From Acidobacteriota bacterium (GTDB lineage: Bacteria; Acidobacteriota; Vicinamibacteria; Vicinamibacterales; JAKQTR01): 64,000 bases of DNA. Below the pieces are notes generated by a model that saw nothing but the letters and a program-made list of their open reading frames with translations, made no database searches and had not been told where the DNA came from. The stretch lies in assembly GCA_026393755.1 (NCBI GenBank), contig JAPKZO010000017.1, positions 1 through 64,000 on the forward strand, in the 5' to 3' direction. The translations under genes and the position numbers were made by a program. Positions 7,607 through 18,208 of the stretch are shown one piece after another (positions within the stretch are counted from its first letter, which is position 1; the number at the start of each line of letters is the position of its first letter).

Positions 7607-9811
7607 ATGTCCCGTGATCTGCACCAGCTTGTGCCTGCTCTCGTCGCCATCTTCACGCTGGCCGTCCCCGGCGCCGTCGCCGCCGCCGATTCGCCGCCCC
7701 CGACGATGGTGTTGCGCTTTCTCGACAACCCCCCGAAGATCGATGGCCGCCTGGACGCCGGCGAGTGGCCCGCTGAGCCTCTGCCAACAGGCGAATGGGT
7801 CTCCTACAACCCTCTCTACGGCGAACGCCTGCCCCACCAGACCACGGTGTGGGTCGGGTACGACAAACGGTACTTCTACTTCGCCTTTCGCTGCTCCGAT
7901 CCCGATCCGTCAAAGATCAAGACGACCATCGCTCGCCGCGACAACATGTTCAACGACGACTGGGTCGGTCTCAAGCTGGACGCCATGGGAAACGGTCAGA
8001 CCTCCTACGACATGTTCGTGAATCCCAGTGGCGTGCAGGGCGATATCCTGACCAGCGCGGCGAAGGGCGAGAACTCGTCTGTGGATTGGATCTGGGACAG
8101 CGCGGCGAAGCTGACGCCAGACGGCTACACGGTAGAGATTCGAGTGCCGGTGCAGAGCCTTCGGTTCAAGAGCGGAGCCGACGTACCGATGCGCGTCCTG
8201 TTCTGGCGCCGGATCAGCCGGCTCGGCATGTCGGTATCGTGGCCCGACCTTCCCCCTGGCAAGTCCGCCTTCGAGCGAGAGGCGACGATGATGGTGCACG
8301 ACTTGGCGTGGCCGGGTGTGCGCGAAGTGATGCCGGCCGTCACCGAGTCGGTCAACCAGACCCGTACCGCGCCCGATCAGTGGTCGGCTGCCGATGGGAC
8401 GACCAACATCGGTGTCAGCGCGAAGCTCGGCATCACGTCGGCGGTGACGCTCGACGGCACCATCAATCCGGACTTCAGTCAGGTCGAAAGCGACAGCTTC
8501 CAGGTCCAGGTCAACCAGCGATACCCGGTGTTCTTCAGCGAGAAGCGGCCGTTCTTCATGGAAGGGATGGGCGTCTTCGAAGTCTCCGGCACCGGCGGTG
8601 ACGGCAACATGGCGACCGCCGTCCATACCCGGCGCATCGCGGATCCGCTGTTCGGCGTGAAGCTGTCCGGCACGGTCGGCCGGGTGACATTCGGCACGAT
8701 CAGTGCCTCTGACGACGCGGCGGGCCGGCTCGATCCGCAGTTCGAGGGGAAGCGCAAACTGTTCAACATCGTGCGCGCGACCTACAGTTTGGCGCCGAGC
8801 AGCTACCTCGGCGCCATCGTCACGGAGACCGACTTCGCGGGCGGCAACAACCGGGTCGCCGGCGGCGACATGTCGCTTCGGATTGGGTCCCATCAGCAAA
8901 TCAACGCGACGGTGCTGCGGTCCTCATCAACCGATCCCGGGGCCGGGGCCTCGTCCCGGACTGGGGCGATGGCCCAGGCGAGCTACGCGTACGACTCGAA
9001 GCGAGTGGGATTTGCCACGCAAGTCGAACACTACGATCGGGACTTTCAGATGGATACCGCCTTCTACAACCGCACGGGGATCACGGGCGGCTGGATGTAC
9101 GGCGGCCTGAACTTCTACCCGGACAAGACCCGCACGCCATGGCTAAAGAAGATCAATCCATTTGTGTTCCTGCAATACGTGCGCGATCGTGTGCAGGCGG
9201 GGCACGACAATCTGCAGGTCTTTGCCATCCGGTCGAACTTCACCCGCAACGGGAGCCTGCGAGCCGACGTCATCCACATACAGGAAGCCTGGGCGCATCG
9301 GGAGTTCGACCAGCGCTCGTTCCGCCTCCAGGGCAACCTGCAGATGACTAACTGGCTGTACCTCAGCGGCCAGGTCAGGGCCGGCAACGGCCTCTACTAC
9401 GATCCGGTCGCCCCCTTTGTCGGTCCCTCGGCCATGCAGTCCGTCACTGTTCTGCTGCAGCCAAGCGCGCGCTTCGCACAAAACGTCTCTGTTCAACGCG
9501 TGACGCTGGATCGACCCGGCGGTGCCGGCCGCGTCTATGACGCCCGCGTCGTCAACACGAAGACCACGTACCAGTTCTCAGCCCGGTTCGCCGTCCGTGG
9601 AATCGTGCAGTACGACAGCGGGGACAGGCGGGTCCTTGGCGACTTCATGTCATCGTACGAGGTGAGGCCGGGGACCGTGTTCTACGCGGGATATGGAACC
9701 CTGTTCGAGAAGCGTGACTACCGCGAGCAGGCGTGGATCCCGGGCGAGGGTTCGTACCTCACCACCAGCCGCGGGCTCTTCATCAAGGCGTCGTATCTGC
9801 ATCGCTTCTAG
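7607..9811 (+). CDS. DUF5916 outer-membrane protein with CBM9-like N-terminus
   Basis: 734-residue secreted protein with signal peptide (ALVAIFTLAVPGAVAAA). Residues ~35-210 resemble a carbohydrate-binding family 9-like sandwich (IDGRLDAGEW, then WVGYDKRYFYFAFRC). The rest is a DUF5916 region with its hallmark INPDFSQVESDSFQVQVNQR and RPFFMEG, then alternating aromatic strands ending in a C-terminal Phe, as in beta-barrels. Function is unknown; the barrel suggests an outer-membrane location. No clear ribosome site precedes ATG 7607. Confidence 0.85.
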   Translation: MSRDLHQLVPALVAIFTLAVPGAVAAADSPPPTMVLRFLDNPPKIDGRLDAGEWPAEPLPTGEWVSYNPLYGERLPHQTTVWVGYDKRYFYFAFRCSDPDPSKIKTTIARRDNMFNDDWVGLKLDAMGNGQTSYDMFVNPSGVQGDILTSAAKGENSSVDWIWDSAAKLTPDGYTVEIRVPVQSLRFKSGADVPMRVLFWRRISRLGMSVSWPDLPPGKSAFEREATMMVHDLAWPGVREVMPAVTESVNQTRTAPDQWSAADGTTNIGVSAKLGITSAVTLDGTINPDFSQVESDSFQVQVNQRYPVFFSEKRPFFMEGMGVFEVSGTGGDGNMATAVHTRRIADPLFGVKLSGTVGRVTFGTISASDDAAGRLDPQFEGKRKLFNIVRATYSLAPSSYLGAIVTETDFAGGNNRVAGGDMSLRIGSHQQINATVLRSSSTDPGAGASSRTGAMAQASYAYDSKRVGFATQVEHYDRDFQMDTAFYNRTGITGGWMYGGLNFYPDKTRTPWLKKINPFVFLQYVRDRVQAGHDNLQVFAIRSNFTRNGSLRADVIHIQEAWAHREFDQRSFRLQGNLQMTNWLYLSGQVRAGNGLYYDPVAPFVGPSAMQSVTVLLQPSARFAQNVSVQRVTLDRPGGAGRVYDARVVNTKTTYQFSARFAVRGIVQYDSGDRRVLGDFMSSYEVRPGTVFYAGYGTLFEKRDYREQAWIPGEGSYLTTSRGLFIKASYLHRF

Positions 9812-10050: not shown

Positions 10051-10081
10051 AACCGTTTCGCAGCGACCAAGAGGAAACGGG

Positions 10082-10366
10082 ATGGCCAGGATCAAGGTGT
10101 CGGTCGAACGTGTCGGCGGCTGCTGTAATCTGCCGATGATGGTCGGCGATTGTTTCTACCTCGACGGGTCGAAGCTGTCGGTTCCCGATGGGAAGTTCGT
10201 CTGCATGTGGGCGCTGCAAACCATGATGCCTGTCTTCCCCATCATGAACGTTCAGGACCGGCTGGAGCCCAGCCATTGGGTCCATGCCGTCAGCCACTTC
10301 ACCTGCCCGGATCCGAAAGGCCAGGTCGTGTTCCGGCTGGAGAGGCTGGCTGATGATTCGGATTGA
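10082..10366 (+). CDS. TIGR04076 family protein
   Basis: 94-residue protein matching the TIGR04076 pattern: an early Cys region (GGCCNLPMMVGDCF), central CMWALQTMMPVFPIM, and terminal FTCPDPKGQVVFRLER. The biochemical role of the family is not established. ATG 10082 has a GAGG ribosome site; an upstream in-frame start lacks one. It overlaps the ferredoxin gene by 14 bp and opens an operon with an aldehyde ferredoxin oxidoreductase. The conserved cysteines and context suggest a metal or redox accessory function, which is inference. Confidence 0.75.
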   Translation: MARIKVSVERVGGCCNLPMMVGDCFYLDGSKLSVPDGKFVCMWALQTMMPVFPIMNVQDRLEPSHWVHAVSHFTCPDPKGQVVFRLERLADDSD

Positions 10367-10871
10367 CGCCAGCAAATGCACTGGCTGTCGCTGTTGCGAG
10401 GCAGCGTGCGCGTTTCACCATACCGGCAGCGGCGGCCGGCTTCTCTCTCGCATCCGGGTCGTCAATCTCTATGAGCTCGGCGTGGACGCGCCCGTCGTCT
10501 GCCCGCAGTGCGCGGAGCGTTACTGCCTCGCGTGCCCGGACGACGCGCTCACGCTTGGTCCGCTCGGCCAGGTCATCGTCTCGCCCACGTTGTGCTCGGA
10601 ATGCGGTGCCTGCACCCGGTCGTGCCCGATAGGCGCGATAGAACCGGTGGACGGCATCGCGTACGTCTGCGACCTGTGCGGCGGACAACCCCGATGCGTC
10701 GACGCGTGCACGCAGGGCGCGATCGTTTTCGCGCCAGGGGCGGGCGGCAAGACGGTTCTCGCCTCGTTCAAGGTAGACAGCGAGCGGCTGGCGCCGAGTC
10801 ACAAGCGGGCAATCTTCGTCCGGGCGCTCGGCCTGTCGGTACGCGAAACCTGGGGCGTGACCCGTGGCTGA
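10353..10871 (+). CDS. Four-cluster [4Fe-4S] ferredoxin, electron-transfer subunit
   Basis: 172-residue polyferredoxin of the HycB/DMSO-reductase-B type. It shows four cysteine groups: CTGCRCCEAAC, CPQCAERYCLACP, CSECGACTRSCP and CDLCGGQPRCVDAC, enough for about four clusters. It lies upstream of the oxidoreductase catalytic gene and overlaps it by 8 bp, so it is probably the dedicated electron acceptor. ATG 10353 has a GAGAGG site and lies within the end of the preceding gene. Cytoplasmic: there is no signal peptide. Confidence 0.9.
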   Translation: MIRIDASKCTGCRCCEAACAFHHTGSGGRLLSRIRVVNLYELGVDAPVVCPQCAERYCLACPDDALTLGPLGQVIVSPTLCSECGACTRSCPIGAIEPVDGIAYVCDLCGGQPRCVDACTQGAIVFAPGAGGKTVLASFKVDSERLAPSHKRAIFVRALGLSVRETWGVTRG

Positions 10872-12660
10872 CGGTACGTGCGGCTACGGGGGCCGGATCC
10901 TCCGCGTGGACGTGACCTCGCGCCGGTTCGAGATCGAACGTCTGGATCCGCGGTGGATCAAAGACGTCATCGGCGGGCGCGCCGCCAACACGAAGCGGCT
11001 TGCCGAAGATCTCGATCCGGCGTCCGATCCGATGGGCCCCGACAATGTCCTCATCTTCGGGATCGGCCCGCTCACGGGCACGCTGCTGCCGGCGTCGGCG
11101 TACTACACGGTCACGGCGCGGTCGCCTCTGACCGGGATCCTGGGCGACTCGGCCGCGGGCGGCCACTTCGGCCCTGAACTCAAGTTGACGGGTTTCGATC
11201 AGATCGTCATCACCGGGTGCGCCGATGCCCTGTCGTACCTGCTCGTCACCGAAGACGGCGTGAAGTTCGTCCCGTGCCCCGAACTGGCCGGCCGCAACGT
11301 CGTCGAGACGACGGCCGCCATCCGTCAGGCCCATGGCGACTGGGACATCCAGGTGGCGGCGATCGGCGTCGCCGGAGAGAACCGCGTACGCTTCGCCGCG
11401 CTCGTATCGAGCGGCAATCGCGTGAACGGCCGCGCCGGGATGGGCGCGGTGATGGGGTCGAAGAACATCAAGGCGATCGCGGTGCGCGGCACGCGCCCTG
11501 TGCGTCTCCACGACCCGCTCCGGTTCCTCGACGAGGTGCGCAAGGTCCACCGCGCGATCCTCGATCATCCTGAGTACGAGAAGCGCCGGCGTCTCGGGAC
11601 GACGATGCTGATGCAGGATCTCAACCGCGTCGGGATCTTGCCGACGCGGCATTTTCAAGAGGGCCTTTGCTCGTACGTCAACGAGGTGTCGGGCGAGACG
11701 CTGGCATCCACCTTCAAGGTCAAGAACAAGAGCTGCTACAACTGTCACGTCCATTGCTCGCGGTACTACGTCTGCGAGGGGGTCGAGGCCGAAGGGCCGG
11801 AGTTCGAGACGCTGTGCGGCTTCACGTCGCGCATCGGCAGCCGCAGCCTGCCGTTCGCGTTGGAGATGAACCGGACCCTGAACCAGTACGGGATGGATTC
11901 GCTGGCCGTGTGTGAAATCGTCGGCTGGCTGATGGAGTGCCAGGAGAAGGGCCTGGTGACGCCAGACGACGTGGACGGCATGCGGATCTCGTGGGGCGAT
12001 TGCGACGTGGTGCGCCGGCTGGTTGAGCTGATCGCGCACCGGCGCGGGATCGGCGACGCGCTGGCTGAGGGCGCGACGCGATTCTCCAGGCGCTTCTCCG
12101 AAGCCGCGCAGAAACTGGTGATGCAGGTCAAGGGCCTGGACATCATCTGCGGCGATCCCCGGGGCATCAAGGCCTACGGCCTGACCTATGCGGTGGCGTC
12201 GCGGGGCGCCGACCACCTGCGGGCCGAGCCGTATTTCGAGCTGACGGAGCGATGGGAGGTGGCGCGGCAGAGATTCGGAACCGAAAAGGCTGCCGACCGT
12301 CTGGCCGAGGAGGGCAAAGCGGCGCTGGTCACCTACTCGGAGAAGATCGCGCTGCTCACCGACTCGCTCACGATGTGCAAGAACGTCGGCCTCTGCATGG
12401 ACGTGATCAACCTCGAGAGCGCCTCATCGCTGCTGGCGGCGGCAACCGGCGTGCGGTACACGCCCGACCGGCTCGAGGCGCATTTCGGCGAGGCGGTGGA
12501 ACGCGACTTGCGGCTGAACCGGCGTTTCGGCGTCACGAAGGCGGACGATACCCTCCCCGATCGATTCCTCTCTGAACCATTGACCGAAGGTCCTACGCGC
12601 GGCTCGGTGGTCGATCTGCCCAGGATGCTCGACGAGTACTACCGGCTGCACGAACCATGA
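10864..12660 (+). CDS. aor: Aldehyde ferredoxin oxidoreductase (tungsten enzyme)
   Basis: 598-residue member of the AOR family, which oxidises aldehydes to acids with a tungstopterin and one [4Fe-4S] cluster. The cluster ligands are visible: C291, C294 and C298 in SCYNCHVHC, and C505 in DSLTMC, the usual DxxxxC position. The N-terminal start YGGRILRVDVTSR and the block VNGRAGMGAVMGSKNIKAI are family-typical. It begins with GTG inside the ferredoxin gene and ends overlapping the permease as ATGA. The actual aldehyde is unknown; the linked amino-acid permease hints at aldehydes from amino-acid degradation. Confidence 0.92.
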   Translation: MADGTCGYGGRILRVDVTSRRFEIERLDPRWIKDVIGGRAANTKRLAEDLDPASDPMGPDNVLIFGIGPLTGTLLPASAYYTVTARSPLTGILGDSAAGGHFGPELKLTGFDQIVITGCADALSYLLVTEDGVKFVPCPELAGRNVVETTAAIRQAHGDWDIQVAAIGVAGENRVRFAALVSSGNRVNGRAGMGAVMGSKNIKAIAVRGTRPVRLHDPLRFLDEVRKVHRAILDHPEYEKRRRLGTTMLMQDLNRVGILPTRHFQEGLCSYVNEVSGETLASTFKVKNKSCYNCHVHCSRYYVCEGVEAEGPEFETLCGFTSRIGSRSLPFALEMNRTLNQYGMDSLAVCEIVGWLMECQEKGLVTPDDVDGMRISWGDCDVVRRLVELIAHRRGIGDALAEGATRFSRRFSEAAQKLVMQVKGLDIICGDPRGIKAYGLTYAVASRGADHLRAEPYFELTERWEVARQRFGTEKAADRLAEEGKAALVTYSEKIALLTDSLTMCKNVGLCMDVINLESASSLLAAATGVRYTPDRLEAHFGEAVERDLRLNRRFGVTKADDTLPDRFLSEPLTEGPTRGSVVDLPRMLDEYYRLHEP

Positions 12661-14048
12661 CGTCACCAGGCGATCGACTGGTCGAGCGCGAGGGCGGTCT
12701 TCAGCGGCAACTCACCCGGCGCCACATGACGATGATCGCGATGGGCGGCGCGATTGGCACCGGACTGTTCCTCGGCAGCGGGATGGCCGTCGGACAGGCC
12801 GGCCCGGCGGTGATCGTCTCCTACGTGCTGGGTGTCGGGCTCTGCCTGATCATGATGTATGCGCTGGCCGAGATGGCGGTGGTCCATCCGACAGCCGGTT
12901 CCTTCGGCGTCTATGCCGAGATCTACCTCAACCCCTGGGCGGGGTTCGCCGTCCGCTACACCTACTGGTTCGCGCAGGTCGTGGCGGTGGGGGGCGAGGT
13001 GACGGCCGCCGGCATCTACACGCAGTTCTGGTTCCCTGACGTGTCGCTCTGGATCTGGGTCGTCGCGTACTCGGCCGCACTCATTCTCGTCAATCTGACC
13101 GCGGTCCGGCTCTTCGGCGAGGTCGAATACTGGTTCGCGATGATCAAGGTCTCGGCGATCCTCGTCTTCGTCGTGCTCGGGACCGCGTATGTGTTCACCG
13201 GGTTCGGTGCGGTCGCGCCCGTCGGGCTCACCAACCTCTTCAATCCGGCGACCGGCGGATTCGTGCCGAATGGGGCTGCGGGGATCATGAAGGCGATGCT
13301 CGTCGTCATGTTCTCCTTCTACGGGATCGAGATCATCGCGGTGACCGCAGGCGAGGCGATGGACCCCGAACGCGAGGTGCCGCGCGCGCTCCGGAGCATC
13401 GTCATCCGCCTCGGCCTGTTCTACATCGTGGCGATCGCACTCGTGGTGGCGATCGTGCCGTGGCAGCGGGCGGGTCTGGCGGAGAGCCCGTTTGTGACCG
13501 TGTTCCGATCGCTCGGGGTGCCCTTCGCCGCCGGGCTCATGAACTTCGTCGTCCTGACAGCCGCTCTGTCGTCGATGAACACCAACCTGTACCTCACGGG
13601 CCGGATGTTGTTCTCATTGGCGCGCAGCGGATTCGCACCGGCGGCATTCGGCCGCCTGTCGCCGCAGGGTTCGCCGAGAAACGCGATTCTGTCCTCGACT
13701 GTCGGTCTGGCGCTGGCCGCGGTGCTGGCGGTGGAGTTTGCCAGCTCCGCGTATCAGTGGCTGTTCGGCATCGCGATCTTCGGGGGCATCCTGGTGTGGA
13801 TCACCGTGCTGGTGACGCTGCTGGCGTTCAGGCGAACGCGAGCGAGGCAGGGACTGCCACCCGGCCGGGTCCGCATGCCCTTCTACCCCTGGCTGCCGCT
13901 TGTCGGAATTGCCGCGCTCCTGCTGGTCCTGGTGGACTGCTTCTTCGTCGGTCTGGGCATCGCATGGGTGGCAGGCGGCATCTGGCTCGCCGCGGTCTCG
14001 TTCGCCTACCTGGCATTCCGAGCGCGACGCGCCCGCCGCGCGGCGTAG
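12657..14048 (+). CDS. Amino-acid permease (APC superfamily)
   Basis: 463-residue transporter with about 12 hydrophobic helices. Helix 1 carries the APC signature GGAIGTGLFLGSG, and the helix 6 region has SFYGIEIIAVTAGEA, typical of the amino-acid transporter (AAT) family. A short soluble N-terminus (RQLTRRHMTMIAMGGAIG) is also family-like. ATG overlaps the aldehyde oxidoreductase stop by 4 bp, so it is the last gene of that operon. Substrate cannot be read from sequence. Confidence 0.9.
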   Translation: MTSPGDRLVEREGGLQRQLTRRHMTMIAMGGAIGTGLFLGSGMAVGQAGPAVIVSYVLGVGLCLIMMYALAEMAVVHPTAGSFGVYAEIYLNPWAGFAVRYTYWFAQVVAVGGEVTAAGIYTQFWFPDVSLWIWVVAYSAALILVNLTAVRLFGEVEYWFAMIKVSAILVFVVLGTAYVFTGFGAVAPVGLTNLFNPATGGFVPNGAAGIMKAMLVVMFSFYGIEIIAVTAGEAMDPEREVPRALRSIVIRLGLFYIVAIALVVAIVPWQRAGLAESPFVTVFRSLGVPFAAGLMNFVVLTAALSSMNTNLYLTGRMLFSLARSGFAPAAFGRLSPQGSPRNAILSSTVGLALAAVLAVEFASSAYQWLFGIAIFGGILVWITVLVTLLAFRRTRARQGLPPGRVRMPFYPWLPLVGIAALLLVLVDCFFVGLGIAWVAGGIWLAAVSFAYLAFRARRARRAA

Positions 14049-14117: not shown

Positions 14118-14147
14118 TTGAGTCCGCGTCGGCCAATCGCACATAAT
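14118..14147 (+). promoter_or_regulatory. Promoter of the ferredoxin-methyltransferase gene
   Basis: TTGAGT (14118-14123), an 18-bp spacer and CATAAT (14142-14147). ATG 14156 lies 8 nt after the -10, so the transcript would be leaderless or nearly so. Confidence 0.5.
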
Positions 14148-14155
14148 TACTCTTC

Positions 14156-15505
14156 ATGGAACCATTTCGCTTTCACGTCTACGCGTGCGACCAGCAGAAG
14201 CCGGAAGGCGTACCGGGATGCGCGGCCCGCGGCTCGGCTGTGATGATCGACGCCCTCCGCAAAGAGATCGCGGCTCGCGGTCTCGTCAACCACGTTCAGC
14301 TGACCACGTGCGGATCACTTGGGCTGTGCGAGCGCGGTCCGAACCTGGTCATCTACCCCGATGGCATCTGGTACTCCGGCGTGAAGCCGGAAGACGTCCC
14401 GGAGATTGTGGAAAGCCATTTCCAGCAGGGCCGCCCCGTGGAGCGGCTCGTCAACCGCGACGCGTCGGCGCTCGAGAACGAGATTCGAACCAATCGCGAC
14501 AAGTACTTCGCCGGCCTGCGGGCGCGCGATGCCGCCGGCGTCATGCCCGATGACCTGATGCAGACGATCCGCGGCTTCCAGGACAGCCGCGTCGTGCTGA
14601 GCGCGATTGAACTCGACGTCTTCTCCGCTGTCGGAGACCGGGCAACCGCCGCGCAGGTCGCGAAGACGATCGGCGCCGATGAACGTGCGACGGAGATGCT
14701 CCTCAACGCGCTCACGGCGCTTTGCCTGCTCGTCAAGAAGGACGGGGTGTTCAGTGTAACTCCCGCATCGAAGCGGTTTCTCACCGCCGGCGGGCAGAAC
14801 GACGCCCGAGCCGCGATGATGCACTACATCGGCCTGTGGCAACGCTGGTCGACGCTGACCGGGGCGGTGCGTTCCGGAACAGGTGCCAAGGCCGATCGCG
14901 AAGCCGACTGGACGCGCTGGTTCATTGCCGCCATGCATCGGAACGCGTCGGAACGGTCCCGCGCGGTCGTCGAGGCCGTGGGCACCACCGGCGTCGCGCG
15001 CATGCTCGACGTCGGAGGCGGATCGGGCGCGTACTCGATCGCATTCGCGAAGGCGAGCAATGCCCTGCACGCCGAGGTGTTCGATCTCGATCCGGTCCTG
15101 CCGCTCGCCCGCAGCTACATCGCCGAAGCCGGTGTGGAATCGCGCGTGACCACCCGCCTCGGCGACCTTCGCCGCGACGCGTTCGGCGAGGACTTCGATT
15201 TGGTGCTGCTCTCGGCGATCTGCCACATGCTCGGCCCCGACGAGAACCGCGACCTGCTCAAGCGCTGCTTCGCCGCCCTGCGTAGCGGAGGCCGCGTCGT
15301 CGTGCAGGACTTCATTCTCGACTCGACGAAGACGGCACCCAAGGCGGCTGCCCTCTTCTCGCTGAACATGCTCGTCGGAACAGAGGCAGGCGCGAGTTAC
15401 TCCGAGGATGAGTACCGGGCGTGGATGATCGAAGCGGGCCTCCGGGATGTGAGCCGGATCCGTCTCGTCGGCCCGACAGGTCTGATGATCGGCAGCCGAT
15501 CCTGA
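14156..15505 (+). CDS. [2Fe-2S] ferredoxin domain fused to a methyltransferase
   Basis: 449 residues, two units. Residues 1-~105 are a thioredoxin-like [2Fe-2S] ferredoxin: C11 and C22, then C52 and C58 in TTCGSLGLC, then NLVIYPDGIWYSGV. The last pair is C-x5-C rather than the usual C-x3-C. From ~125 comes an O-methyltransferase-like dimerisation winged helix (VVLSAIELDVFSAVGDRATA), then a Rossmann SAM domain with LDVGGGSGAYSIAFAKA. The substrate is unknown. The fusion suggests redox-dependent methylation. It follows the aldehyde oxidoreductase operon but has its own promoter. Confidence 0.8.
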   Translation: MEPFRFHVYACDQQKPEGVPGCAARGSAVMIDALRKEIAARGLVNHVQLTTCGSLGLCERGPNLVIYPDGIWYSGVKPEDVPEIVESHFQQGRPVERLVNRDASALENEIRTNRDKYFAGLRARDAAGVMPDDLMQTIRGFQDSRVVLSAIELDVFSAVGDRATAAQVAKTIGADERATEMLLNALTALCLLVKKDGVFSVTPASKRFLTAGGQNDARAAMMHYIGLWQRWSTLTGAVRSGTGAKADREADWTRWFIAAMHRNASERSRAVVEAVGTTGVARMLDVGGGSGAYSIAFAKASNALHAEVFDLDPVLPLARSYIAEAGVESRVTTRLGDLRRDAFGEDFDLVLLSAICHMLGPDENRDLLKRCFAALRSGGRVVVQDFILDSTKTAPKAAALFSLNMLVGTEAGASYSEDEYRAWMIEAGLRDVSRIRLVGPTGLMIGSRS

Positions 15506-15510
15506 ACCGT

Positions 15511-16383
15511 CTACCGCTTCGGCTCCGGGCAGAACCCCGGCGCAAACCCACGGGCCCGTTCGCGGCGATCAAGGACCTCATCACCAGGCTGGACCGCCGG
15601 CAGGACGCCCAGACGCACGAGCACTGTGCGGTACTCATAGCGGAGGGTCAGCGATGCGGCCGGCGTGTCCTCCAGGTCGAGCGAGATGGCGGTCACCGCG
15701 TGGTCGATCGACCGGCCCATACCGGTCGCGGCGTACTCGGCCGACTGGGCCGCCACAGATGGCGCTGCACCCGGTGCCGCCTTCGCCGCCTCCGATCCAC
15801 GCCGCGCCGCGGCTGCGTCAGCGGAGCCGGCGGCACCGGCTCCTTCCGCGTTGCGCGACGCTCCAGAGGGCGCCGCGCCCTCCCGCGACCGCGAGTCCCA
15901 CGCAGTGACTGGCATCGGCTTCGGCAGCCGCTCGCGGAAATACACCGCCGAGATGACGCCGAGGTCCTCAATCCTGCCCAGGCTCGCGCCGTAGGAGCGC
16001 GCTTCGGTGGTGAACTCGAAGCGCCGCGCATCCGACAGGCTGGTCTGCCATCCGCTGATCACGACGGTTCCGTACGGCTCGATCACCCACTTGCGGGCGG
16101 CGGCGGCCGTCGTGTGGCGCGCGTCGATCGTGTTGAGGCCATCGACCGAGAGCGCGACGGCCACCCGGACGGGATACGGATTGGTCACGCGGATGGCGTA
16201 GGGCCGTCCCTTGAGCGCCTCGATGTACGAGGTTCCCCGAGCCGTGTACTGGGGGCGAGGCGCCCCGTCAACCAGGATGTCGATGCGGGCGGCCGGCACG
16301 AACGGCCGAGAGTCTGCGGTGAGCCGACCGGAAGCCAGGATCCCAAGAACCAGCGCCAAGGCGAGCGGAATGCGGTGCAACAT
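15511..16383 (-). CDS. Secreted protein of unknown function
   Basis: 290 residues with a clear signal peptide (MLHRIPLALALVLGILASGR). Residues ~30-150 look like a beta-sandwich (RPYAIRVTNPYPVRVAVALS, and later WVIEPYGTVVISGWQTS). An Ala/Gly/Ser/Glu-rich linker (~180-230) follows, then a conserved-looking tail (LTLRYEYRTVLVRLGVLP). ATG 16383 is chosen over a longer frame because AGGAGG lies directly upstream. Its 3' end faces the methyltransferase gene with 5 bp between them. I do not recognise the family. Confidence 0.65.
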   Translation of the reverse strand: MLHRIPLALALVLGILASGRLTADSRPFVPAARIDILVDGAPRPQYTARGTSYIEALKGRPYAIRVTNPYPVRVAVALSVDGLNTIDARHTTAAAARKWVIEPYGTVVISGWQTSLSDARRFEFTTEARSYGASLGRIEDLGVISAVYFRERLPKPMPVTAWDSRSREGAAPSGASRNAEGAGAAGSADAAAARRGSEAAKAAPGAAPSVAAQSAEYAATGMGRSIDHAVTAISLDLEDTPAASLTLRYEYRTVLVRLGVLPAVQPGDEVLDRRERARGFAPGFCPEPKR

Positions 16384-16459
16384 ATCGTCCTCCTGCATAG
16401 AGAACGATGTCGCTCCGAAATCTTGCAGGCCGGTCGGGGTGGGGCCAGACCCGATCCGT

Positions 16460-18208
16460 TCACCGTCCCTGCGCGATGGGTGCAGGCCGAAGGTGGAACA
16501 GGTAGTCCGCGTCCGATCTGGTGACCAGTTCCCAATCGGGGCTTGCCAGCGCCTCAGCAATGATCCCCGCCGCCAGGTCAGGATACCGGGCGCTGTGCAG
16601 CACGACATAGTCGACGCCCAGTGCACGAAAGGTCTGCGTGCCGTTGGGGCCGGGAAACGCCGCCATGTGACTGATCACGCGAGAATACCCCGGGGGCTCC
16701 GCGCGGCCGAACCCATTCACGATTGGGTGCCAGTGCACCGTCGAGTACAGGAGATAGTCGGCTGGCAGCGTCCACTCTTCGCGCCGGTCGCGGTGGGTAG
16801 GAAGCGACACGACTGCATGTGCGTCGAGCGTGGCCAGATAGAGATAGACGGGCGGTATCGGCTCAGGCTTCGGTTTGCCCAGCGGGAAATCCACGACGTA
16901 CCATTCCGACAACATCACCGGGATCAGCAGGATGGTCGCGAGACGGCCCTTCCATCCGAACCTGTGGTGCAGCACGGTGGCGCCGGCACCGCCCAGCAAG
17001 GCCATCGACAACAAGAGTAATTCGGTAAAGCGGGCTGGGCACCTGAACGATGCCATAGACGGCACCCTGGCGAATAGATCGAATGGGTACCAACCTCCGC
17101 GTCCTTCTACGAACGCGGAAGACGGCCCGAGAGCCAGCAGGAGCGCCACCGCACCCAACGCCACCGAAAACACGGCGACAACCGGCGTGACTCCAGGCAG
17201 GCTCCGTCGCCGGATCGAAGGAATGGCGAGCACGCCGATGCCGATGCCAGCCAACAGCACTGCGACGGCGCCGAGGTACAGGGTCGTCTCGCCCCAGATC
17301 CAGCGCGGGCGGCCATCCCCGAGGCTGACCAGCCAACGTCCCATCCACGTGTTCAGCGGTGGATACAGCAGCGCCGTCAGATTGGCCGAGTACCTGGCTG
17401 CCTCTCCGAATCCCACGGCGGGCAAGGCCGAGTAGGGTCTGGCGAAGTAAGCAACAATGGGCAGCGTCGCGACGACGGCCACCAGGGACTGGCCTGCCAG
17501 CTTCAGCAAGCGCCGGCTGGGAGCCCCGGCGTTCGCCTGCCCGCGCCTCCCTCCCCACGTGGCGCCAATCCACAAGCATAGAAAGTACAGGGCGTTCGCC
17601 AGCAGAACCATGACGGCCATGTACCAGGAAGTCAGCACCTCGCACAGGATGGCCGCCGTCAGTGTGACCAGGCGAGGCCATGTCGGGCGAATGAACCACC
17701 GCTCGAGCGCAATGAGCGAGAGCGGAATCAGGAAGGCCCAGACCAGGTGCGCATGGGAATGCCCGTGCAGCATCCGGTAGTACGAGAATGCGTAGATCAG
17801 CCCGCCGGCCACCGCGGCCAGTCTGTCACGGACGTGGCGGTAGATCAGCGCATAGGCGGCCAGGCCGTTGGCGAACCACGACACCAGCAACACGATATTG
17901 AATCCGAGCACGGCGTTGCCGGTCGTGGCAAAGATGGGCAGCGTGAACAGGGACAGGCCAAACAGGTGCTCGTTGTAGGCGAGGCTCTGGACAGTCGGGT
18001 AGTAGTAGTTCGCCTGAAACAACGGCAGCCCGTGGAGCAGGGCGTGATTGTCCCACGCCAGCACCCACGCGCCAAGTCTCGCGTCGCCAGGATAAACGGC
18101 CGAACTCAGCTCGGAGAAGTTACAGAACGGCCCTGCCATGATGACGGTGGCAATGGCAAACACGGCGGCAACCGACAACCCGCGGAGGAACCGTGTCACC
18201 TGCTTCAC
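16460..18208 (-). CDS. Polytopic membrane protein, GT-C glycosyltransferase-like
   Basis: 582 residues with roughly ten hydrophobic helices. The first periplasmic loop contains YPGDARLGAWVLAWDNHAL, an acidic motif like those of GT-C lipid-linked sugar transferases, and a soluble C-terminal region follows. It starts with GTG 27 bp after the RND pump gene, so it may be co-transcribed, though no functional link is obvious. The GT-C assignment rests on topology and the acidic loop, not on a recognised family. Confidence 0.6.
   Translation of the reverse strand: MKQVTRFLRGLSVAAVFAIATVIMAGPFCNFSELSSAVYPGDARLGAWVLAWDNHALLHGLPLFQANYYYPTVQSLAYNEHLFGLSLFTLPIFATTGNAVLGFNIVLLVSWFANGLAAYALIYRHVRDRLAAVAGGLIYAFSYYRMLHGHSHAHLVWAFLIPLSLIALERWFIRPTWPRLVTLTAAILCEVLTSWYMAVMVLLANALYFLCLWIGATWGGRRGQANAGAPSRRLLKLAGQSLVAVVATLPIVAYFARPYSALPAVGFGEAARYSANLTALLYPPLNTWMGRWLVSLGDGRPRWIWGETTLYLGAVAVLLAGIGIGVLAIPSIRRRSLPGVTPVVAVFSVALGAVALLLALGPSSAFVEGRGGWYPFDLFARVPSMASFRCPARFTELLLLSMALLGGAGATVLHHRFGWKGRLATILLIPVMLSEWYVVDFPLGKPKPEPIPPVYLYLATLDAHAVVSLPTHRDRREEWTLPADYLLYSTVHWHPIVNGFGRAEPPGYSRVISHMAAFPGPNGTQTFRALGVDYVVLHSARYPDLAAGIIAEALASPDWELVTRSDADYLFHLRPAPIAQGR

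Follow-up and report, generated by a model that had tools for sequence, protein, structure and literature searches.

The stretch of DNA analysed here (the window; 64,000 nucleotides of contig JAPKZO010000017.1 from the Acidobacteriota bacterium assembly GCA_026393755.1) carries a plus-strand operon of four genes encoding a TIGR04076 family protein, the two subunits WorS and WorL of a predicted tungsten oxidoreductase (WOR), and an amino-acid permease. The features of the operon are as follows.

10070 to 10075, plus strand: Shine-Dalgarno-like AGAGGA, read in the sequence six bases 5′ of the TIGR04076 start codon and presumably the ribosome site.
10082 to 10366, plus strand: TIGR04076 family protein, 94 amino acids (NCBIfam, 59.9 bits, above the curated cut-off of 33).
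10353 to 10871, plus strand: WorS, small polyferredoxin subunit, 172 amino acids (relatives in the Protein Data Bank (PDB) 8c0z_C, 6x1o_B, 9mqx_E and 4z3w_E).
10864 to 12660, plus strand: WorL, tungsten-pterin subunit of the aldehyde ferredoxin oxidoreductase (AFOR) family, 598 amino acids, GTG start, with domains AFOR_N and AFOR_C.
12151 to 12153, plus strand: codon of WorL Gly430, in the column of Tyr427 of the Pyrococcus furiosus aldehyde oxidoreductase (AOR), PfAOR, from alignments, with the position computed from the gene start.
12214 to 12228, plus strand: codons of WorL His451 to Glu455, part of the REP motif described below, in the columns of PfAOR His448 to Tyr452, from sequence and alignments.
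12657 to 14048, plus strand: APC-family amino-acid permease, 463 amino acids (PF00324, 332.9 bits).

Direct reading of the sequence places overlaps of 14 bp between the TIGR04076 and WorS genes, 8 bp between WorS and WorL, and 4 bp between WorL and the permease, and the open reading frames thus bear out the overlapping four-gene operon described in an earlier note on this DNA. WorL scores 230.9 bits for AFOR_N (cut-off 29.8) and 336.9 bits for AFOR_C (cut-off 27), and its closest solved large subunits, matched over the whole length, are AORs sensu stricto (PfAOR 1aor, Aromatoleum AOR 8c0z and Acetomicrobium WOR1 9mqx), with 357.7 bits to 1aor_A and 355.4 bits to 9mqx_D. WorS contains 17 cysteines, with four sets suited to four predicted [4Fe-4S] clusters, and a PDB sequence search relates it to the small subunits of the solved tungsten enzymes 8c0z_C, 6x1o_B and 9mqx_E. 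Among the operon genes and the next gene downstream we identified no WorN or WorABC genes, and the operon contains no FAD or bifurcation genes. An AFOR large subunit paired with a four-Cys-set polyferredoxin, free of FAD and bifurcation genes, is also the arrangement of Class II WORs such as P. furiosus WOR5/ASOR and Caldicellulosiruptor bescii GOR (C. bescii; PMC13328260, available text). WorL and WorS are therefore very probably a Class II, ferredoxin-linked tungsten enzyme, which differs from those relatives in its adjacent TIGR04076 gene, its APC permease, and a Gly/Ala and a Glu in place of two active-site tyrosines, Tyr427 and Tyr452.

We next determined how far the association of TIGR04076 with this enzyme extends, using an alignment of six WorL sequences, five of them TIGR04076-linked, as query, and taking loci from named genomes (prefixed L; genomes are prefixed G) for the best 80 of at least 582 relatives. 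Alignment with four solved enzymes separates 95 WorL sequences into 33 that carry the motif RG-x-DH-x-R-x-EP (REP) together with Gly or Ala in the Tyr427 column, and 62 that lack the motif. By profile search, TIGR04076 adjoins 21 of the 33 REP sequences, some of which were fetched via TIGR04076, and none of the 62. Because of that route of collection, the fair count is limited to loci found by WorL similarity, where TIGR04076 lies beside 16 of 24 informative REP rows and none of the 52 other loci (Fisher p 7e-11; best 80 of at least 582 relatives), 43 of the 52 having at least 1 kb on both sides. Two REP rows cut upstream (L119 and L122) stand outside the 24, and two loci stand outside the alignment: L134, in which the WorL frame is split and TIGR04076 is adjacent, and L154, a REP member cut upstream that shows no TIGR04076. 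In a quick tree of 104 WorL sequences, a single branch (SH-aLRT 100) separates all 36 REP rows (including two identical pairs) from the rest, and PfAOR and its relatives lie outside this REP clade. The result that the earlier note named as a refutation, no conserved linkage of TIGR04076 with the oxidoreductase in other genomes, thus did not occur, and the linkage is conserved within one WorL clade.

The window WorL belongs to a 20-row subclade, some rows of which were fetched via TIGR04076, that is TIGR04076-linked throughout save L119 and L122, both truncated upstream. According to record titles, linked lineages include Aminicenantes, Thorarchaeota, a Thermoplasmatota metagenome-assembled genome (MAG), Desulfobacula and other deltaproteobacteria, Chloroflexota, Phycisphaerae, Mesoaciditogaceae and Bipolaricaulota. 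TIGR04076 lies 5′ of WorS in the window and in most linked loci and 3′ of WorL in L062, L128, L129, L138 and L139, and it occurs as one domain or as two fused. Tight or overlapping packing recurs in related loci, with the exception of L121, where about 1.5 kb separates TIGR04076 from WorS. As separate observations on gene arrangement, WorS and WorL are encoded in a single frame in L141 (6420 to 9020, plus strand; WorS first) and in L157 (2046 to 4469, plus strand; WorS last), a candidate WorS-WorL fusion in L133 was ruled out since WorS lies in a different frame, and the Syntrophomonadaceae locus L136 holds a second WorS-WorL pair (16108 to 17802, plus strand) that is cut by the locus end.

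Two phylum samples provide the reciprocal view from TIGR04076 genes. Among 297 genomes of the window's phylum, the window's genome (G000) included, 41 carry TIGR04076 (52 matches in total) and 100 carry AFOR_C, a frequency that does not agree with the earlier note's remark that such oxidoreductases are less commonly noted in Acidobacteriota. We searched the surroundings of all 52 TIGR04076 places (49 stretches and the window, with some contigs ending nearby) using the window's proteins and found an adjoining AFOR gene in 5 of the 41 carrier genomes: G000, G143, G048, G035 and G203. Genomes G048 and G035 have the order TIGR04076-WorS-WorL (WorL identity 67%), G203 repeats the window's order through to the APC permease, with TIGR04076 as a fused pair, and G143 has WorS-WorL followed by a fused TIGR04076 pair. 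The second sample comprises 247 genomes from the phylum of the Desulfobacula locus, 89 of which carry TIGR04076. Upstream of each of the six best WorL matches in this sample (865–895 bits), a TIGR04076 gene lies no more than 0.6 kb away; G407 and G491 are the only additions, because four of the six genomes overlap the WorL-similarity set (G297 holds L126, L258 and L260 match L123 and L127 exactly, and the coordinates in G333 equal L125). Among 30 TIGR04076 loci taken with 1.5 kb on either side, 8 contain an AFOR gene, six of them REP and two of another AFOR group, and joined match lists add at least two further TIGR04076/AFOR pairs on the same contig about 1.1–1.2 kb apart (G379 and G325). The non-REP group beside TIGR04076 (L249/L256 and L251/L257) has Thr or Ala in the Glu313 column; in L256 (2357 to 4576, minus strand) and L257 (5052 to 7462, plus strand) the AFOR gene directly follows TIGR04076 and no WorS is seen at these positions.

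Several of these counts weigh against a necessary partnership. Eight of the 24 informative REP rows have no adjacent TIGR04076 (L130, L131, L133, L135, L136, L137, L140 and L141), with the proviso that L130 could hide a copy 3′ of WorL because this locus ends with WorL. In the first sample 36 of 41 TIGR04076 genomes have no AFOR neighbour, and G041 and G245 hold a REP WorS-WorL pair yet have no TIGR04076 match genome-wide; in the second, the seventh WorL match (G479, 644 bits) comes from a genome with no TIGR04076 match. TIGR04076 is thus not always needed, since the eight REP rows, G041 and G245 go without it, and association with AFOR is not a property of the whole family, since adjacency is seen in only 5 of 41 genomes. 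A role for TIGR04076 as a general marker of tungsten enzymes was ruled out, as most members in both samples lie away from AFOR genes. In 16 of the 49 stretches of the first sample the direct TIGR04076 neighbour belongs to a single gene cluster whose examined member is an aldo/keto reductase; these 16 loci of L061–L109 (for example L068, L088 and L094) define a TIGR04076 subgroup that is often accompanied by an NhaC-like antiporter and lacks Cys41, a residue considered below.

The same data bear on whether the linkage reflects inherited neighbourhood or transfer of the genes as a block, with TIGR04076 having no role alongside WorLS. The closest sequences to the window WorL in the tree come from an archaeal MAG, Aminicenantes and Thorarchaeota, which points to movement of the block between lineages, and TIGR04076 is common away from AFOR genes; the WorL sequences of G035 and G048 fall among Aminicenantes, a group placed within Acidobacteriota. 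Passive carriage is at odds, however, with the existence of two gene orders, single and double TIGR04076 forms and one fusion to WorS, and with the second AFOR group that has TIGR04076 adjacent (L256 and L257), and we consider it highly improbable. TIGR04076 is, with strong likelihood, functionally coupled to the REP form of WorLS.

We compared the WorL active site with solved enzymes to assess what the REP group may oxidise. The second shell of most AORs consists of Thr243, Glu313, Tyr427 and His448, with the tyrosine binding the aldehyde in proposed schemes, and most of the AORs listed show only conservative change at the Tyr427 position (PMC12096430, available text). Window WorL shares with AORs sensu stricto the corresponding Thr246, Glu315 and His451 (PfAOR Thr243, Glu313 and His448) and the four cluster cysteines; it differs in Gly430 for Tyr427 and Glu455 for Tyr452, and so departs from an AOR sensu stricto as defined by Tyr427 or a conservative change. 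The pattern holds across the 33 REP rows: column 243 contains Thr in 25 and Ser in 8, Glu313 and His448 are present in all 33, column 427 contains Gly in 18 and Ala in 15, and column 452 is Glu in all 33. Arg453 of WorL matches a Lys or Arg that is present in AORs too. The distinction is weakened by the wider family, in which loss of Tyr427 is common, as only 17 of the 62 non-REP sequences have Tyr in that column. Read against the second shell in PMC12096430 (available text), the changed tyrosine makes plain aldehyde oxidation by the REP group uncertain. Together with the few AFOR-adjacent genomes, the loss of the second-shell tyrosine leaves the earlier note's tie between the TIGR04076 family and aldehyde oxidation unsupported.

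REP enzymes might still be ordinary AORs that detoxify aldehydes from amino-acid breakdown or oxidise a charged semialdehyde such as succinate semialdehyde, with second-shell changes that tune specificity and with TIGR04076 assisting unspecifically. Retention of Thr246, Glu315 and His451 is consistent with this, as are the likely role of PfAOR in the oxidation of peptide-derived aldehydes (PMC13328260, available text), the five POR-domain matches in the window's genome (which holds three AFOR genes), and the window permease, whose best NCBIfam name is gamma-aminobutyric acid (GABA) permease TIGR01773 at a sub-threshold 352.3 bits (cut-off 678.1), leaving an assignment to APC family PF00324 only. 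Against it stand Gly or Ala at Tyr427 in 33 of 33 REP rows where most AORs show conservative change, the precedent of the Tyr-changed enzymes WOR4 (no activity recorded) and WOR5/ASOR (taurine), in which activity is lost or new (both PMC12096430, available text), and the lack of any aldehyde-forming gene in the operon. We regard an ordinary AOR as rather unlikely.

Genes near REP operons provide further hints about the substrate. APC permeases lie beside REP operons in the window, L072, L132 and L140; a Na+ symporter (PF00209) is present in L071 and has relatives by tblastn in L073, L117 and L120; and a LIV-type ABC transporter occurs in L126, with a relative in L124. TrpB-like pyridoxal-phosphate (PLP) enzymes (TIGR01415, above the curated cut-off) adjoin REP WorS-WorL in L116 (9946 to 11334, plus strand) and L137 (6196 to 7428, plus strand), one a bacterial and the other an archaeal MAG. 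Near other REP operons are a Thr/Ser-dehydratase-like enzyme (L131, below cut-off) and a branched-chain transaminase (L128), and an Asp/Glu-racemase-family gene begins 0–5 bp 3′ of the WorL frame in L123, L125, L126 and L127 and also lies near WorL in L154. An amino-acid transporter on the same strand within 8 kb was found in 10 of 34 REP loci and 2 of 53 others (L154 counted among the others), using transporter queries taken from REP loci. With the five loci that supplied queries removed, the contrast shrinks to 5 of 29 REP loci against 2 of 53 (p 0.09), so that amino-acid transporters of three families beside REP operons are a suggestive clue to the substrate and not a statistically secure one. 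The earlier note's step from permease to an amino-acid source is accordingly plausible from the transporters and PLP enzymes beside REP operons and weak in its statistical contrast, and because of this contrast we lowered our estimate, so that an amino-acid-derived substrate for the REP enzyme is now evenly balanced between likely and unlikely.

We then examined the TIGR04076 protein itself. In a Mesoaciditogaceae MAG (L132, 4311 to 5036, plus strand), an in-frame fusion joins TIGR04076 to the WorS polyferredoxin, giving a protein of 242 amino acids with TIGR04076 at residues 1–89 (79.6 bits) and ferredoxin models from about residue 107. The WorS part of an AlphaFold2 (AF2) model of this protein resembles 9mqx_G (Z 22.1), 6x1o_B (Z 19.8) and 8c0z_C (Z 18.3). 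Across 22 linked TIGR04076 domains aligned, Cys15, Cys41 and Cys75 are invariant. The fusion, the invariant cysteines and the tight gene packing are what would be expected if TIGR04076 were a third structural or redox subunit seated on WorS, with the three cysteines binding a metal or cluster. Such a subunit fits poorly with the AF2 prediction for the fusion, in which both domains are confident but have no fixed packing (pTM 0.59; linker residues 94–102 below 50), a result that also tempers what the fusion says for our preferred accessory role; with REP pairs that have no TIGR04076; with the aldo/keto-reductase-linked TIGR04076 proteins, which do not have Cys41; and with solved WorLS complexes that work without a subunit of this kind (PMC13328260, available text). 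On balance a third subunit appears somewhat unlikely.

An accessory role for TIGR04076 draws on its predicted fold. Sequence searches against the PDB returned no relative (best E 0.37 with the single sequence and 0.49 with a profile of the 22 sequences), and the protein matches no Pfam family at E 0.01, leaving PF02625, the XdhC profile, unmatched. An AF2 model from the 22 sequences (pLDDT 89.4, pTM 0.78) gave no Foldseek match in the PDB at E <0.001; the first ranks of this model-based search were 3on5_A (E 0.078), 3on5_B and 2we7_A, with 2we8_A sixth. In VIA-align the same model gave Z 7.4 to 2we8 (rmsd 2.8 over 78), 7.2 to 3on5 and 6.5 to 2we7, with the next row at 2.6, and the TIGR04076 part of the L132 model gave Z 7.8, 7.7 and 6.8 to 2we8, 3on5 and 2we7, a repeat and not an independent test because most of its alignment rows also occur in the first alignment. 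These three structures are XdhC/CoxI proteins, pterin-cofactor chaperones for xanthine-oxidase-type enzymes, and the predicted TIGR04076 fold resembles them over 74–79 residues (rmsd 2.2–2.9), with the rest of XdhC absent from TIGR04076. An XdhC N-domain profile built from 19 of 30 loci (the remaining loci being on the other strand or outside the extraction criteria) matches only 2we7/2we8 and 3on5 in the PDB at E 0.01. Two results count against reading kinship into the likeness: a Z of 7–8 is usual for models with no clear match and may reflect a common arrangement, 8 being the safer level, and hhalign comparison of the TIGR04076 and XdhC N-domain profiles found none (Prob 0.4). We therefore keep the resemblance of the predicted TIGR04076 fold to the XdhC N-domain as one of fold only. 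By eye, with no computed alignment, Cys41 and Cys75 are placed like two conserved cysteines of XdhC N-domains, one before a helix and one before the last strand. XdhC binds the molybdenum-molybdopterin cofactor and delivers it to xanthine dehydrogenase; the role of its conserved Cys82 is unclear (PMC2997495, available text). From the modelled fold, TIGR04076 as a cofactor chaperone is a tentative possibility that we hold with some doubt. WorX offers a parallel, as a small accessory gene beside a WOR that the authors cited think serves cofactor processing (PMC13328260, available text); WorX is ThiS-like by description, in contrast to the XdhC N-domain likeness of the predicted TIGR04076 fold. 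One publication, in its available part, tables TIGR04076 with a suspected role in redox reactions or iron-cluster metabolism, and the term 'TIGR' does not occur in the main text of the 2026 WOR classification (PMC13328260) by term search.

Candidate genes for tungstate uptake, for which the earlier note had suggested looking elsewhere, were found on the window's own contig. A TupA-like protein (L272; contig C17 of G000, 105163 to 105849) scores 202.5 bits, below the curated cut-off of 400, in a frame of 530 amino acids, roughly double the 266 positions of the TupA model, and is followed by a TupB-like permease gene (126.7 bits, cut-off 320); the pair lies 41 kb past the window. ModA scores above cut-off on contig C5 of the same genome, and a PF12849 match on C28 was rejected as TupA because it is PstS-like.

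Taken together, these data suggest a model in which the operon would produce a cytoplasmic Class II tungsten oxidoreductase of WorL and WorS, along with a permease for uptake and an accessory protein dedicated to the enzyme. The permease would import an amino acid, and WorL, with tungsten held between two pterins, would oxidise a charged compound derived from it in a substrate pocket opened by the change of Tyr to Gly or Ala and supplied with an acid by the change of Tyr to Glu. The WorS clusters would relay electrons to ferredoxin. TIGR04076, through its XdhC N-domain-like fold, may hold or hand over the pterin cofactor, or sulfur for this cofactor, during WorL assembly. As a complete chain, from Class II tungsten enzyme through amino-acid-derived substrate to TIGR04076 as a dedicated accessory and perhaps cofactor chaperone, the proposal is more doubtful than most of its parts and on the unlikely side. 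A bolder version is distinctly less probable again: that REP proteins are not aldehyde oxidoreductases and take as substrate a zwitterionic amino acid or a compound closely derived from one, held by Arg453 and Glu455 within the opened pocket, while TIGR04076 serves as an XdhC-like chaperone, sometimes tethered to WorS, which would load the bis-pterin tungsten cofactor or supply it with sulfur.

The operon is bounded downstream by a gene at 14156–15505 that starts 107 bp 3′ of the permease; we left this methyltransferase gene out of the operon because a promoter-like site at 14118–14147, the only one found in a promoter and terminator scan, precedes it. The same scan found four terminator-like sites, every one within genes, against 1.8 expected, and an Rfam search of the window at gathering scores gave no match. 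The 14156–15505 gene (plus strand) encodes an N-terminal thioredoxin-like 2Fe-2S ferredoxin domain (73.1 bits, below the model cut-off) fused to an O-methyltransferase (PF00891 and PF08100), and a tblastn search of 55 phylum loci with its product gave no match. Upstream, a co-directional gene for a DUF5916 protein (7607 to 9811, plus strand) ends 270 bp 5′ of the operon.

New in this analysis are the REP clade, its changed second shell, the TIGR04076-WorS fusion and the XdhC-like predicted fold. A physiological role has been defined for at least one member in just five of 92 WOR clades (PMC13328260, available text). The constant small partner of the REP clade, its altered active site and the uptake genes close by help to focus the search for both substrate and accessory factor. 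If true, the proposed role would be the first function for TIGR04076, a family that occurs in 41 of 297 genomes in one phylum sample and 89 of 247 in the other.

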